A stretch of DNA of 64,000 nucleotides from Methanosarcina acetivorans C2A (GTDB taxonomy: Archaea > Halobacteriota > Methanosarcinia > Methanosarcinales > Methanosarcinaceae). The position numbers were made by a program, and so were the translations under genes. Below the pieces are notes generated by a model, which was not told the origin of the DNA, did not search any database, and saw only the letters and a list, made by a program, of their open reading frames with translations. Within the stretch, counting starts at the first letter, position 1; every line of letters begins with the position of its first letter. The stretch lies in assembly GCF_000007345.1 (NCBI RefSeq), contig NC_003552.1, positions 2,976,001 through 3,040,000 on the forward strand. The letters are read 5' to 3'. Positions 35,310-39,680 of this stretch are shown here, in pieces.

Positions 35310-35831
35310 AAGTACTTTTTTACGAAAAATTAGTAAATCTGACTGTAAAATTACCCCTCATTTTTTGCTCCGCAAAAAGAATTAGCATTTCATATCCCCA
35401 CCGAAGCATTTCATATCCCCACCGAATATTTATATTTCTCATTGAATAATATAGTTGTCATCGAACAATTATATTTGTTTTCAATTCGATATATTAAATT
35501 TTTTGAGGTCCTATTTTTTAGCATTCCCATACGCTTCCGGAGCTGAATTGGCTTTTCTCAACCTTTTTGTCATTGTTCATATTCTCAAGTCATCTTGTCG
35601 ACCCTTGAAAAACTGTTCTTTCCTCCAAAAACTGTTCTCTCCTCCAAAAACTGTTCTTCCCTCCAATAGTTCAGATGGGACAATAAACGATTCAAATAAT
35701 CTACAGATAAAAAAAGCATAAATTAGATATAATATCGAAGTAAAGGACTAATGAAGAAAAAACATGAAATTAAAAATGAAATTGAACCAAAAACAGGAGA
35801 AATAAATCGGCATATAAAACAGGAGAATTCA
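35310..35831. repeat. Intergenic region with two small direct-repeat arrays
   Basis: Bases 35385-35426 hold two copies of a 21-bp unit AGCATTTCATATCCCCACCGA. Bases 35608-35665 hold three copies of about 18 bp, AAAACTGTTCTTTCCTCC. AGGAGAA at about 35820 is the ribosome binding site of the next gene. The plus-strand ORF at 35455 looks like chance. Confidence 0.6.
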
Positions 35832-36434
35832 ATGAAAAAATTGAATGTCCTCTTGATATTATCTGCAATGTTTACGCTGCTTTATATCCCAGGTCCGGCA
35901 GTTGCTTTGCTGGTCCCGGAAGCTGCCGAAATCCCCTACCAGATTAATGCCTCGGACAGAATAGTTATCGGCACGGTAAGTGGGATTGACATTCACTATG
36001 ACCATACAATCTTCACAATTACAGTTGATGAGTGGCTCTATAACCCTCTACCCGCAAAAACCATAGACGTGAGAACCGAGACCGGAAAGTATCTCTGGAC
36101 TGAAGACCAGGCAGAATTCACCCTTAACGAGTCTGTACTCCTCATGCTCAGGGACGAAGACCCCGAGAAGCAGCTTTTCAGAGTCTCTATTGGCTTTCCT
36201 GGAAAACACTCTGCATCAGACAGGGGAGCTGTAATTGAAGAGCTGAAGGTTCAGGGAAAATGGCAGGAAGAAAATCAGACCGGAAATACGGAAACGGCAG
36301 GTGAGCAGCCAGCAGGTCCAAATTCCCCCTCAGATACGGAAAACATTCCTTTCACAGGCATTCTGTGGGCAGCTGCAGCAATGCTCGGAGCAGTTGAATT
36401 TGCTGGGAAGAAAAAGAAGTATAATGACCGTTAA
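35832..36434 (+). CDS. Secreted protein anchored by a C-terminal membrane helix
   Basis: 200 aa from ATG 35832, chosen because GGAGAA precedes it and because it begins directly with a signal peptide (KKLNVLLILSAMFTLLYIPGPAVA). A beta-rich domain follows (RIVIGTVSGIDIHYDHTIFT, VDEWLYNPLP, LLMLRDEDP), then a polar Thr/Glu/Pro/Ser linker (about 135-170), and a C-terminal IPFTGILWAAAAMLGAVEF helix with a KKKK stop. The layout matches archaeal surface proteins with a sorting-type tail. Function is unknown. An upstream extension to 35751 exists in frame but lacks a ribosome binding site. Confidence 0.75.
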   Translation: MKKLNVLLILSAMFTLLYIPGPAVALLVPEAAEIPYQINASDRIVIGTVSGIDIHYDHTIFTITVDEWLYNPLPAKTIDVRTETGKYLWTEDQAEFTLNESVLLMLRDEDPEKQLFRVSIGFPGKHSASDRGAVIEELKVQGKWQEENQTGNTETAGEQPAGPNSPSDTENIPFTGILWAAAAMLGAVEFAGKKKKYNDR

Positions 36435-36545: not shown

Positions 36546-36623
36546 TTAGCAGCAACGCCAGTAGAATCTGGGTACACAGCACCTAATTCTTATGCAGATA
36601 AAGCGGAAGAAAAAGAAACACAT
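36546..36623 (-). CDS. Microgene, 25-aa Cys/Arg/Phe-rich peptide (unit I)
   Basis: ATG 36623 to TAA 36546. The peptide begins MCFFFFRFICIRIR and ends VPRFYWRCC, with 5 Cys and 5 Arg among 25 residues and no acidic residue. A purine-rich GGGGGGAATTATAATG places six G at the spacing seen for the Shine-Dalgarno sites of the neighbouring microgenes. The MC start and the aromatic-cysteine content echo the unit II peptide. It lies about 300 bases downstream of conserved promoter module I. No homologue is known to me; coding status is inferred. Confidence 0.45.
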   Translation of the reverse strand: MCFFFFRFICIRIRCCVPRFYWRCC

Positions 36624-36751: not shown

Positions 36752-36765
36752 ATATTATACCTCCT

Positions 36766-36979
36766 AAACCCCTTATCAACCCCCCAAATAAGTTTTATAC
36801 TCAAGGCAATTATTTTTAAAACTATTCTTAATCCTGATTTTAATTTGGAGATGAGTAGATTTTATTTTAATTGCCAGAGAGTATATAGCAAATTATAATA
36901 ATAATACTAATAACAATCAATTATATAAAACGACTAGAATAATTTGTTCTAATCATTAAATAGTCTTCGAAAATCCAGA
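36766..36979 (-). promoter_or_regulatory. Conserved promoter/leader module I
   Basis: Read on the minus strand: GATTTTCGAAGACTATTTAATG, an operator-like TAGAA-N7-TTCTA (36935-36951), a TATA box TTTTATATAA (36921-36930), then ATATACTCTCTGGCAATT, a spacer, AATTGCCTTGAGTATAA (an inverted GGCAATT/AATTGCC pair about 75 bases apart) and GGGGGGTTGATAAGG. The same order recurs in modules II and III. Confidence 0.75.
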
Positions 36980-37385
36980 CAAATATCTGATTAAGGTTCA
37001 GGATTTGCAGTAAGGAATTATTTTTATTAAATAATGTCAAGAATGTATTAGGGCACAAGCACCAGCCATTACATTATAAAAAAGACAATCAATAAGTTCC
37101 TTTTAAGCCTGGTAGAGATACTCCTCTACAGTGACCATTTAAAATGTAGCCATTATGACAGTTTCAAAACACTTCCAGCTGATTATTACTCAAATATAAA
37201 CAAAAACCTTACAGAAACCGTGTTTAAGCTGAAAATGTTAAAAAACTCAAAATGTATGGAACAGGGCAAAAAAGTAAGTGAGAAGCTCAAATGAAGTGAT
37301 CCGCCTCGTACTGGTATTCCCTATAATCCCTGAAAAAAGAAATGCACAACTAAATTTAGAAAAACAAACATACATAGTCATCAAT
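36980..37385. other. Spacer between units I and II
   Basis: AT-rich. A short inverted repeat CTGGTAGAGA-tactc-CTCTACAG lies near 37110-37133. No gene seen on either strand; this would be the upstream flank of module I and the end of unit II. Confidence 0.4.
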
Positions 37386-37419
37386 TCAAAAAAAGATAAT
37401 TTCTTAGAAATTATCTTTT
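37386..37419 (-). terminator. Terminator hairpin of unit II
   Basis: AAAAGATAATTT-cttag-AAATTATCTTTT is a perfect 12-bp stem (37391-37419). Read on the minus strand it is followed by more T (TTTTTTTGAATTG). It lies 69 bases after the second microgene of unit II. A similar flank, TCATCAATTCAA...CTTGAAAAGA, recurs after unit III near 38613-38667. Confidence 0.75.
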
Positions 37420-37487: not shown

Positions 37488-37601
37488 TTAACAACCGCCC
37501 CAGCCGCCACAACCGCCGCCCCAGCCGCAGCCGCAGCCACGACCCCAGAAGCGATGCCTGAAGCCCCAGCCCCAGTTGTTAAATCCAAATCCACAACACA
37601 T
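37488..37601 (-). CDS. Microgene, 37-aa Cys/Gly/Trp-rich peptide, copy 2
   Basis: ATG 37601 to TAA 37488. The peptide begins MCCGFGFNNWGWGFRHRFWG and ends GWGGGCGGWGGC; 16 Gly, 6 Cys and 6 Trp in 37 residues. GGAGG sits eight bases before the ATG (GGAGGTAAGTACAATG). The opposite strand shows an Ala/Pro-rich ORF that is only the antisense. The coding part and ribosome binding site are identical to copy 1 at 37679-37792. Cys and Trp codons are common here although both residues are rare by chance. Possible roles, all inferred: metal binding, or an aggregating or membrane-active peptide. No maturation enzyme is next to it. Confidence 0.65.
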   Translation of the reverse strand: MCCGFGFNNWGWGFRHRFWGRGCGCGWGGGCGGWGGC

Positions 37602-37651: not shown

Positions 37652-37818
37652 GCTTATTATCGGGCTCAATGGTTGTTATTAACAACCGCCCCAGCCGCCA
37701 CAACCGCCGCCCCAGCCGCAGCCGCAGCCACGACCCCAGAAGCGATGCCTGAAGCCCCAGCCCCAGTTGTTAAATCCAAATCCACAACACATTGTACTTA
37801 CCTCCGTCTGTTTACCTT
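37652..37818 (-). repeat. Direct repeat of about 165 bp (other copy 37462-37628)
   Basis: The repeat holds the 37-codon microgene, its ribosome binding site (AGACGGAGGTAAG) and about 25 bases after the stop codon. The coding part is identical between copies; a few differences occur only after the stop (GGGCTTAGCGGTTG versus GGGCTCAATGGTTG). Confidence 0.9.
37679..37792 (-). CDS. Microgene, 37-aa Cys/Gly/Trp-rich peptide, copy 1
   Basis: ATG 37792 to TAA 37679. It is identical in coding sequence and ribosome binding site to the copy 191 bases further on, and comes first after promoter module II. Identity across the gene with differences only outside suggests recent duplication or gene conversion that keeps the peptides equal. 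Six cysteines (residues 2, 3, 23, 25, 31, 37) could form disulfides or bind metal. There is no signal peptide. Confidence 0.65.
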   Translation of the reverse strand: MCCGFGFNNWGWGFRHRFWGRGCGCGWGGGCGGWGGC

Positions 37819-37903: not shown

Positions 37904-38100
37904 ATTAAACCCTTATCAACCCCCAATAAGTGTTGTACTCACGGCAATTTTTGAAACCATTCTTCGTACTGATTTTATTTGGAGAGGAGCAGATTTGATT
38001 TTAATTGCCAGAGAGTATATACCTAAATAATAATAATAAATTATATAAAAAGGATAGAATAAATTTTTCTAAACATTAAATAGTCTTCGAAAATCCGGGT
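37904..38100 (-). promoter_or_regulatory. Conserved promoter/leader module II
   Basis: Same order as module I on the minus strand: GATTTTCGAAGACTATTTAATG, operator TAGAA-N7-TTCTA (38055-38071), TATA box TTTTATATAA (38041-38050), TATATACTCTCTGGCAATT, AATTGCCGTGAGT, GGGGGTTGATAAGGG. It lies about 110-310 bases before the first 37-codon gene. Confidence 0.75.
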
Positions 38101-38726
38101 AAACAGCCGACTGAGATTGAAGGTTTTCTTCTATTCTTAATTTTGAAGGTAATAATTCTTAAAACTTCTCAATAACACCGGAGATTCAGTCTTTAATTTA
38201 CTATTCAAGCAAGAAAAATTTTTTTTTTTGGATAAATAAGCTCTATTCTTAAATTAAATCAATATAAAGTTTCTTAACGGAACTGATTTTGCTGAAAAAA
38301 AATAGTAACATTTTCCAATATTAAACATCAAAACTTCAGTCTTTTCTTCAGAAAATTCATTTCTTTAGAAGTGGAACATGGGATTGATGGATTTTCGATT
38401 TATTCCATTTCATTCCCAACTTCAATTCTTCATTCCCGCTTAGATTTATTCCAGTGCCTTCAAATCTCGAGTAAGTAAAGAAAAGGAGAAAAAAGAACAA
38501 ATAAAGAAGCATGAAAAATACGGTTTCAACCGTAAAAATTACCCGGATCATATGTCACAAACCATGACAGAAAGATATGTAGTTACCAGCCCATAAAAAA
38601 TAAGAAATCGTAGCCATCAATTCAAGGTAAAAAGAAACCATGATTTTATCCTTATATCTTGAAAAGATGGCAAATGAAACAATTGCTTTTCAGTTAAGTG
38701 ACCAATTAATCCGTATCCAGTGTTAT
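38101..38726. other. Spacer between units II and III
   Basis: AT-rich, with poly-T/A runs (38220-38230). The minus-strand ORF at 38357-38551 is hydrophobic but lacks a ribosome binding site. Near 38613-38667 is the flank shared with the unit II terminator region, which would end unit III. Confidence 0.4.
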
Positions 38727-38810
38727 TTAATCCCAGCCAGCCCAGATGTAGAGTTGGGTGCTCTCATAATAGGCGACGATTTTGTTGTAATATAAACTAA
38801 AGAATCCCAT
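38727..38810 (-). CDS. Microgene, 27-aa aromatic peptide, copy 2 (unit III)
   Basis: ATG 38810 to TAA 38727. The peptide begins MGFFSLYYNKIVAYYEST and ends LYIWAGWD; 10 of 27 residues are aromatic. GGAGG lies eight bases before the ATG (GGAGGAATATACAATG). Compared with copy 1 it has one silent change (Asp GAT/GAC) and one conservative change (Val/Ile), the pattern expected for selected protein. No known family. Confidence 0.65.
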   Translation of the reverse strand: MGFFSLYYNKIVAYYESTQLYIWAGWD

Positions 38811-38904
38811 TGTATATTCCTCCAGATTTCAATTCTTGTTCAATAGTTAGAAAACAATTTTTTTTCTTAGTTCAAACAGCTATTATTATCCATTCCAGTG
38901 TTAT

Positions 38905-38988
38905 TTAGTCCCAGCCAGCCCAGATGTAGAGTTGGGTGCTCTCATAATAGGCGATGATTTTGTTGTAATATAAACTAAAGAATCCCAT
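38905..38988 (-). CDS. Microgene, 27-aa aromatic peptide, copy 1 (unit III)
   Basis: ATG 38988 to TAA 38905, with Ile at position 12 where copy 2 has Val. The same GGAGG with 8-base spacing is present. It is first after promoter module III. The duplicated block spans about 110 bp and includes the ribosome binding site and about 10 bases after the stop. The peptide is amphipathic with Tyr/Trp clusters, so membrane or surface contact is possible, but this is a guess. Confidence 0.65.
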   Translation of the reverse strand: MGFFSLYYNKIIAYYESTQLYIWAGWD

Positions 38989-39121
38989 TGTATATTCCTC
39001 CAAATTTTAATGTGTTCTTCGTGATATGTTCTTCTTGTCTTGTATATTCATGTACATTAGTTGAAAAGAATGGAGTTTTGTGAACTTAGAATAATCTCCC
39101 AATGGCTTGTAATTCTCCGAT

Positions 39122-39322
39122 CAAACTCTTTATCAACCCCCCAACACCAAGATTATACTCATGGCAATTATTTTTAGAAATTAGTCTGGACACTTATCTT
39201 CATTTGTAAGCCCACAGACTAAATTTTAATTGCTTCAGAGTATAAATAAAAATATATACGTAACACATATAAAATCAACAGAATTAACAATACTTACCAT
39301 TAAATAGTGCTTGAAAATCTGG
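39122..39322 (-). promoter_or_regulatory. Conserved promoter/leader module III
   Basis: A more diverged copy: GATTTTCAAGCACTATTTAATGG, TATA box ATTTTATATG (39266-39275), TTTATACTCTGAAGCAATT, AATTGCCATGAGTATAA, GGGGGGTTGATAAAG. The TAGAA-N7-TTCTA operator is degenerate here. It precedes the unit III microgenes by about 130-330 bases. Confidence 0.7.
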
Positions 39323-39680
39323 AAGAATAAAAGGGGAATAAAGGATCCAACTTATAAATTTAAGTTACAGGTTATAAATTTGAGAGTGTACAGGTGAAAT
39401 AAAGCTTTTACCCCTCTTTTCTGCAAATAAGGGAAAAGTAAAACAGTTCATGAAAAATAAAGGGTAAAAAGCATAATAAAATATGATATAAAGCTTTGAA
39501 ACCTCTTAATATAACTGAAAAAACGAGTAACCTCTTCTATTTATTAACTATATAACTTAGGTTTTTTTCTTTTCAAGTGTGGTATTTTCCCGGAGAAAAA
39601 TTTTTGGACAATTATATTAAGATAATTATTTTAATCTGTAAGTTCCCCACATCCTTACATCCGCAGGCACCATTAACCCG
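39323..39680. other. Intergenic region upstream of unit III and downstream of mptE
   Basis: AT-rich, with a short direct repeat TTATAAATTTAAGTTACAGG/TTATAAATTTGAG near 39352-39385. No gene seen. Confidence 0.4.

Follow-up and report, generated by a model that had tools for sequence, protein, structure and literature searches.

Tandem 27-residue microgenes of Methanosarcina acetivorans and a set of tiny, repeated, aromatic-rich peptide genes in most Methanosarcina

Two nearly identical open reading frames (ORFs) of 27 codons lie in tandem in the genome of Methanosarcina acetivorans C2A, and the question that they raise is whether frames this small are genuine genes and, if they are, what their peptides do. 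Most genes of fewer than 40 codons are missing from annotation, and proof that one of them is real is usually hard to obtain; Methanosarcina has working genetics and a published Ribo-seq protocol. We analyzed a stretch of 64,000 nucleotides, here called the window (positions 2976001-3040000 of this single-contig genome of 5,751,492 bases), and searched a set of 30 Methanosarcina genomes that includes its own. As set out below, the 27-residue genes belong to a set of very small, repeated genes for aromatic-rich peptides that is present in most Methanosarcina and had so far gone unnoticed.

The microgenes of locus I and their shared upstream element

A first-pass annotation had described two duplicated 27-residue ORFs with the same GGAGG-8-ATG arrangement and only two base differences between their coding parts, a description that we can confirm. 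Both copies of this family, termed B, are 84 nt long and differ at nucleotide 34 (GTC/ATC, codon 12, Val/Ile) and nucleotide 81 (GAT/GAC, codon 27, a silent Asp change); the peptides read MGFFSLYYNKI(V/I)AYYESTQLYIWAGWD, and the 8-nt spacer between GGAGG and ATG is AATATACA in both (Table 1). They are indeed rich in aromatic residues, although Phe, Tyr, and Trp make up exactly one third of the peptide (9 of 27) and not more than a third, as had been claimed. The repeat finder delimited a unit of 118 nt with 97% identity (38716-38833 versus 38894-39011) and a period of 178 nt, which extends from 23 nt ahead of the ATG to about 11 nt beyond the stop codon and leaves the remainder of the period unrepeated. 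Judged by sequence, the similarity of the two units is far above chance.

The B pair is followed by family A, which is Gly/Cys rich, and then by a third microgene, in an arrangement that we call locus I. Family A corresponds to the first duplicated family of the earlier annotation and consists of two DNA-identical ORFs of 37 codons. In M. acetivorans, locus I adjoins mptE (an MptE-like gene) and ileS and has no adjacent transporter. It also adjoins an ORF of 227 aa (35751-36434, plus strand) with, by eye, an apparent signal peptide, a C-terminal hydrophobic stretch, and a Lys-rich tail; this is a possible surface protein, without a match in Pfam or NCBIfam. A Phe-rich ORF comparable to the third microgene was seen in another genome (G019, L094:8549, MFFFPFKFFSFKFFPFRFRHGFRGFGCC).

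Table 1. Features of locus I, in window coordinates
Feature	Position	Strand	Remark
Shared element upstream of B pair	39122..39326	minus	nhmmer match L103 9327-9123 and alignment
TTCT-N6-TTTATAT	39267..39283	minus	predicted upstream-box end and TATA box of B promoter
Left arm of leader stem	39228..39244	minus	TATACTC..GCAATT
Right arm of leader stem	39156..39169	minus	AATTGCC.TGAGTA
Conserved leader motif	39130..39141	minus	GGGGGTTGATAA, downstream of stem
GGAGG + 8 nt	38989..39001	minus	ahead of B copy 1
Family B microgene, copy 1 in transcription order	38905..38988	minus	MGFFSLYYNKIIAYYESTQLYIWAGWD
GGAGG + 8 nt	38811..38823	minus	ahead of B copy 2
Family B microgene, copy 2 in transcription order	38727..38810	minus	MGFFSLYYNKIVAYYESTQLYIWAGWD
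Shared element upstream of A pair	37907..38102	minus	nhmmer match L103 8103-7908
Predicted TATA boxes of the other two elements	38043-38059 and 36923-36939		correspond to that of B
Family A microgene, copy 1	37679..37792	minus	37 aa, Gly/Cys/Trp rich
Family A microgene, copy 2	37488..37601	minus	DNA identical to copy 1
Perfect 14-bp inverted repeat	37391..37419		just beyond A pair; possible 3' end of A transcript (no transcript data)
Shared element upstream of third microgene	36765..36983	minus	nhmmer match L103 6984-6766
Third microgene	36546..36620	minus	MCFFFFRFICIRIRCCVPRFYWRCC; GGGGGG-8-ATG; own copy of shared promoter/leader element

The first-pass annotation had also argued that the presence of two unrelated duplications with one and the same layout points to a common function. 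The layout alone is weak evidence for this, and the inference gains its support from a similarity of three copies (36.8-37.0, 37.9-38.1, and 39.1-39.3 kb of the window) that the repeat finder detected. On the minus strand these align into one element of about 215 nt, with a copy ahead of each locus I unit (B pair, A pair, and third microgene), and they are the three BLAST-level copies in this genome. A profile built from the three window copies and iterated once located the element ahead of locus I units in the fetched species; its matches ahead of two further families, D and C, at a second locus (locus II) were weaker. Throughout the genus, almost all microgene units, whatever their family, have the element in front of them. 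The consensus, GACTATTATT..TAAGGA-N7-TTCT-N6-TTTATATAA, about 25 nt, a conserved TATACTC, and a base-paired leader, reads as an archaeal promoter, from which a transcription start about 25 nt downstream of the TATA box can be inferred.

Of 61 copies of this element, 56 have a same-strand microgene with a Shine-Dalgarno site no more than 650 nt downstream; the corresponding figures are 14% for random positions and 1/61 for the opposite strand. Among the five exceptions, three are Gly/Cys-rich ORFs of 61 to 67 aa with the same GGAGG site, slightly above the length cut-off. ORFs of this kind were seen behind the element at L099:319, L100:3265, and L093:3264 (minus strand, approximate starts); they are longer versions of family A, and two species have the MGGFPFFKKFGGCGCGG start in common. 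Searches of the own genome with the promoter-core pattern returned the two locus II sites and isolated matches at 3259243 and 1185720 without a microgene behind them, which we treated as chance; strict patterns of this type miss variant locus I copies, and their counts are not a census. A scan for bacterial-type terminators and promoters stayed near shuffled expectation and is uninformative for an archaeon.

An element common to otherwise unrelated families is the strongest evidence in these sequences that the families belong together, as through it unrelated microgenes prove each other real. Since they share both promoter and RNA leader, a common function is likely, though inferred and untested. 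The promoter element further suggests an archaeal activator and an inducing condition, both unknown; that one dedicated activator or condition serves all copies is an inference.

The leader itself appears to be structured. The arms TATACTC..GGCAATTA and TAATTGCC..GAGTATA, compared across 16 leaders of locus I, have 93% of cells paired versus 28 to 45% in slid controls, and four pairs show double changes, a number reached by 1 of 500 shuffles. Several G-U pairs suggest that the stem is an RNA structure rather than a DNA dyad. The motif GGGGGTTGATAA recurs in the other two locus I leaders (37913-37924 and 36773-36784, minus strand), and G-rich motifs resembling it were noticed in the D and C leaders. 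Aligned by hand with the archaeal anti-Shine-Dalgarno sequence, it can pair, with one bulge, with the 3' end of 16S rRNA and could be a standby ribosome site. Rfam gave no match at gathering score for the window region and six related loci, and the spacers between copies fold no more stably than shuffles.

Distribution and coding constraint across Methanosarcina

Genome-wide discovery of the microgenes rested on searches. The B peptide of the window, used as a single query, found tandem microgenes in other species with E values from 5.6e-6 to about 0.1, in four copies with 182-nt spacing (G009), three (G010 and G026), or two (G019), behind GGAGG-type sites and with spacings mostly of 182 to 243 nt. 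The M. acetivorans genome itself contains a second array of four copies (4852332-4853102). In another genome (G008), three B copies (C1:433754-434210) and a family C gene (C1:432751-432846) all lie on the minus strand. Each B copy found has a GGAGG-type site and 25 to 27 codons. Profile searches placed family B in at least 21 of the 30 genomes, with one to seven copies each at two loci, and family C, a peptide of 32 to 44 aa with the motif MFFYLxYTKIT, in 22 of the 30; the E values of profile members are not independent, because the profiles were built from those members. Outside Methanosarcina, family C was found in none of 392 genomes sampled across the phylum.

Locus II follows a regular plan, with one to three copies of D (an alternating-hydrophobic companion family, as A is the Gly/Cys-rich companion), one to seven copies of B' at spacings of 129 to 365 nt, a gap of about 1 kb, and then C, and the array holds its place in most species. 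In one genome (G024) there is no significant match to the peptide profiles, yet the conserved place has two elements, both with a divergent microgene behind them. Past the last copy of an array comes either non-coding sequence or the next large gene in convergent orientation, and a role as leader peptides or attenuators failed its test, as no aromatic-metabolism gene lies downstream of them on the same strand.

Two other observations concern the B' copies. The longest array (L076:2282-3663, plus strand) has three D copies and then seven B' copies at a spacing of about 145 nt. Most of the B' copies at locus II (L073-L092) have upstream a conserved GTATAACGGGGGATAAACAAAAT..CAGGAAAAG.GTGGAGGG stretch, possibly a translation enhancer.

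The first-pass annotation had proposed a comparison of silent and replacement changes, with a homologous set in which replacements and frameshifts are as common as silent changes as the refuting outcome. For this test, the closest pairs were chosen to be disjoint, and the differences within each pair were redistributed randomly over one sequence in 2000 rounds. Silent changes numbered 59 in family B versus 41.1 expected and 47 in family C versus 30.2, values that none of the 2000 random placements reached in either family, and 28 in family D versus 23.8, which is not significant; purifying selection at the protein level is detected for B and C, with D not significant. Replacements make up 99 of the 165 differences in family B, frequent but conservative, and because they remain common, the constraint is real but modest, with a dN/dS moderately below 1 (approximately 0.5 to 0.6, from the observed/expected ratios). 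Divergent locus I pairs exceeded random placement in protein similarity (P < 0.05) in 14 of 15 cases in one subgroup and 6 of 6 in the other, although these pairs share sequences and hence are not independent; the closest locus I pairs, taken alone, contain too few changes to show selection. For the divergent pairs of the first subgroup, 67 to 93% of random placements created a stop, while the real pairs have none. Open frame and Shine-Dalgarno site are kept across species, the latter ahead of every copy. Because some of the homologues were found through the similarity of their open frames, the sample is biased against disrupted copies. With a silent excess in B and C and conservative replacements, the refuting pattern did not materialize.

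These results bear on the possibility that function resides in an RNA, either the leader or a small RNA, with the ORFs only incidental. In its favor, the leader shows conservation with covariation, and earlier small RNAs of Methanosarcina mazei were later shown to contain ORFs (PMC11456600). However, such an RNA would not account for the silent excess and conservative replacements in B and C, for the missing stops, or for a Shine-Dalgarno site ahead of every copy, and we regard it as very improbable. The integrity of the ORFs, the coding constraint on B and C, the shared element, the tandem copies, and the conservation across the genus are all present in the DNA, while translation is inferred. 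In our judgement these are very probably genuine translated microgenes that form a genus-specific, coregulated set (a regulon), albeit without transcript, ribosome, or mass spectrometry data.

Possible functions of the peptides

Homology offered no guide to function: Pfam, NCBIfam, PADLOC, and PHROGs (the last for five peptides) gave no family match for the peptides, IMG/VR viral contigs contained no relative of family C, and no signal peptides are apparent on the microgene products. As far as family C in IMG/VR and the five peptides in PHROGs go, nothing speaks for a phage- or plasmid-borne element. Family D alternates hydrophobic and polar residues (z of 10 at 180 degrees), family C has a strand-like periodicity at 160 degrees, and family B is mixed, with z scores that are inflated because the sequences are related. 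AlphaFold2 predicts a helix for family C (pLDDT 82, 22 sequences), in conflict with the strand-like periodicity, and therefore we leave the fold of the peptides open.

In the mechanism that we propose, the locus I promoter, with its conserved upstream box and TATA box, would drive transcription of a 5' leader, folded into a long-range stem, and of the two near-identical peptide genes behind it. Both of these genes have a strong Shine-Dalgarno site of their own, and the duplication would therefore be a dosage device. The same type of promoter/leader would drive the Gly/Cys-rich pair and the third microgene and, at the second locus, D, the one to seven copies of B', and C. The mechanism that we favor over the others, though only tentatively, is that the peptides are leaderless, aromatic, self-associating bulk products located at or outside the cell envelope, with a structural or membrane-active role.

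The absence of apparent signal peptides and the predicted helix of family C would also suit small regulatory proteins, intracellular or membrane bound, that bind a resident complex or membrane protein, with duplication setting dosage only. Methanosarcina is known to use small proteins in this way, as the M. mazei proteins MtrI and MtrR and the product of sORF_05 have been reported to bind a resident complex or membrane protein (PMC12774963, PMC13370731, PMC11456600). Unrelated families under one promoter, copy numbers from 1 to 7, and fast divergence fit poorly with a subunit-like partner, and this reading is unlikely, if still a serious one and only slightly behind that of bulk products at the envelope. 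We give considerably less credit to type I toxin-antitoxin-like arrays, in which short hydrophobic toxins are repressed by antisense RNA, as in ldr and ibs of Escherichia coli. Short hydrophobic peptides, tandem repeats, and long leaders would agree with them, but the peptides carry charged residues throughout, the alternation of family D described above is strand-like and does not suggest a simple transmembrane helix (family B is mixed in this respect, and AlphaFold2 gives family C a helix), the shared element was not seen in the opposite orientation, and nothing appeared in the defence and family libraries.

The case for bulk products outside the cell depends on export. Locus II is bordered in most species by two ABC systems. 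The divergent one combines a MacB/LolD-like ATPase with a MacB_PCD/FtsX permease and includes a 413-aa CARDB/NEW3 protein; the convergent one consists of an ABC-2 permease and a DrrA-type ATPase whose score lies above the curated TIGR01188 cut-off. In place of the convergent system, M. acetivorans and some relatives have a DEAD-box helicase. Multicopy, fast-divergent, genus-restricted peptides next to ABC transporters suggest export, for which the MacB-type and DrrA-type systems would be the candidates, and export through them is plausible but unproven. Copies of the transporters persist in four genomes in which no array was found (G006, G018, G020, and G021), so they do other work too. Most Methanosarcina genomes contain, at a distance of about 4 kb from the CARDB/NEW3 gene, a close paralogue of it (L078:7228-10000, plus strand; G000:C1:4859040-4860254), and the MacB-type operon may thus be duplicated.

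If exported, the peptides could instead be antagonistic, a bacteriocin-like or modified-peptide system that uses the flanking transporters. Genus restriction, fast evolution, multiple copies, and Cys-rich companions are in line with such a role, as are the best-known relatives of the adjacent transporters, which act in drug or peptide export (with the reservation that among these genes the drrA model alone passes its cut-off). Neither a modification enzyme nor an immunity gene was recognized among the flanking genes examined, locus I lacks a transporter, and the locus II array is place-stable in most species, unlike typical mobile bacteriocin loci; antagonism is thus doubtful, more so than a regulatory role. 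The fullest form of our proposal, a multicomponent leaderless peptide system (A, B, C, D, and others) that is coinduced by one promoter/leader type, exported, and assembled extracellularly, whether into envelope or aggregate material or in the form of membrane-active peptides, is speculative and somewhat less secure than the idea of self-associating bulk products by itself. Should peptides of this kind be exported and assemble, they would represent an archaeal peptide-secretion system unrelated to any described; secretion or self-assembly would in either case mean an unnoticed peptide system in an environmentally important methanogen.

Comparison with known systems

The closest match in genus and size class is found in M. 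mazei, for which the main text of a Ribo-seq study reports 314 translated unannotated sORFs, half of them of 30 aa or less and many intergenic (PMC11456600). In that main text, sORF_05 is the only one for which another copy in the genome is mentioned, located in a transporter operon, and tandem arrays are not described; the words "tandem," "aromatic," and "paralog" are absent from it. Orthologues of our microgenes may be among the 314. A full-text literature search with the peptide strings found no paper, with most subscription journals outside its coverage.

The ldr and ibs genes of E. coli are tandem type I toxin genes for short hydrophobic peptides, and the repetition of short hydrophobic peptide genes is what our arrays have in common with them. 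They differ in that no antisense gene was identified here (without transcript data), in that the Methanosarcina peptides are more polar and partly strand-like in pattern, and in that unrelated families share one promoter. Keratin-associated and chorion proteins are structural proteins rich in Gly, Tyr, and Cys, which family A alone resembles, with its GCGCGGW/GGY runs and lengths of up to 67 aa; this is an analogy of composition, and homology is not expected. The phenol-soluble modulins of Staphylococcus are leaderless peptides of 20 to 45 aa that form amphipathic helices, are encoded in several tandem copies, and leave the cell through Pmt, an ABC exporter that combines an ATPase with an ABC-2 permease. 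There is no sequence relation between the two systems, which belong to different domains of life, and in Methanosarcina the putative exporters are found at locus II only and export has not been shown; the likeness lies in leaderless short peptides encoded in tandem and, for the putative exporter at locus II, in the same ATPase and ABC-2 permease type.
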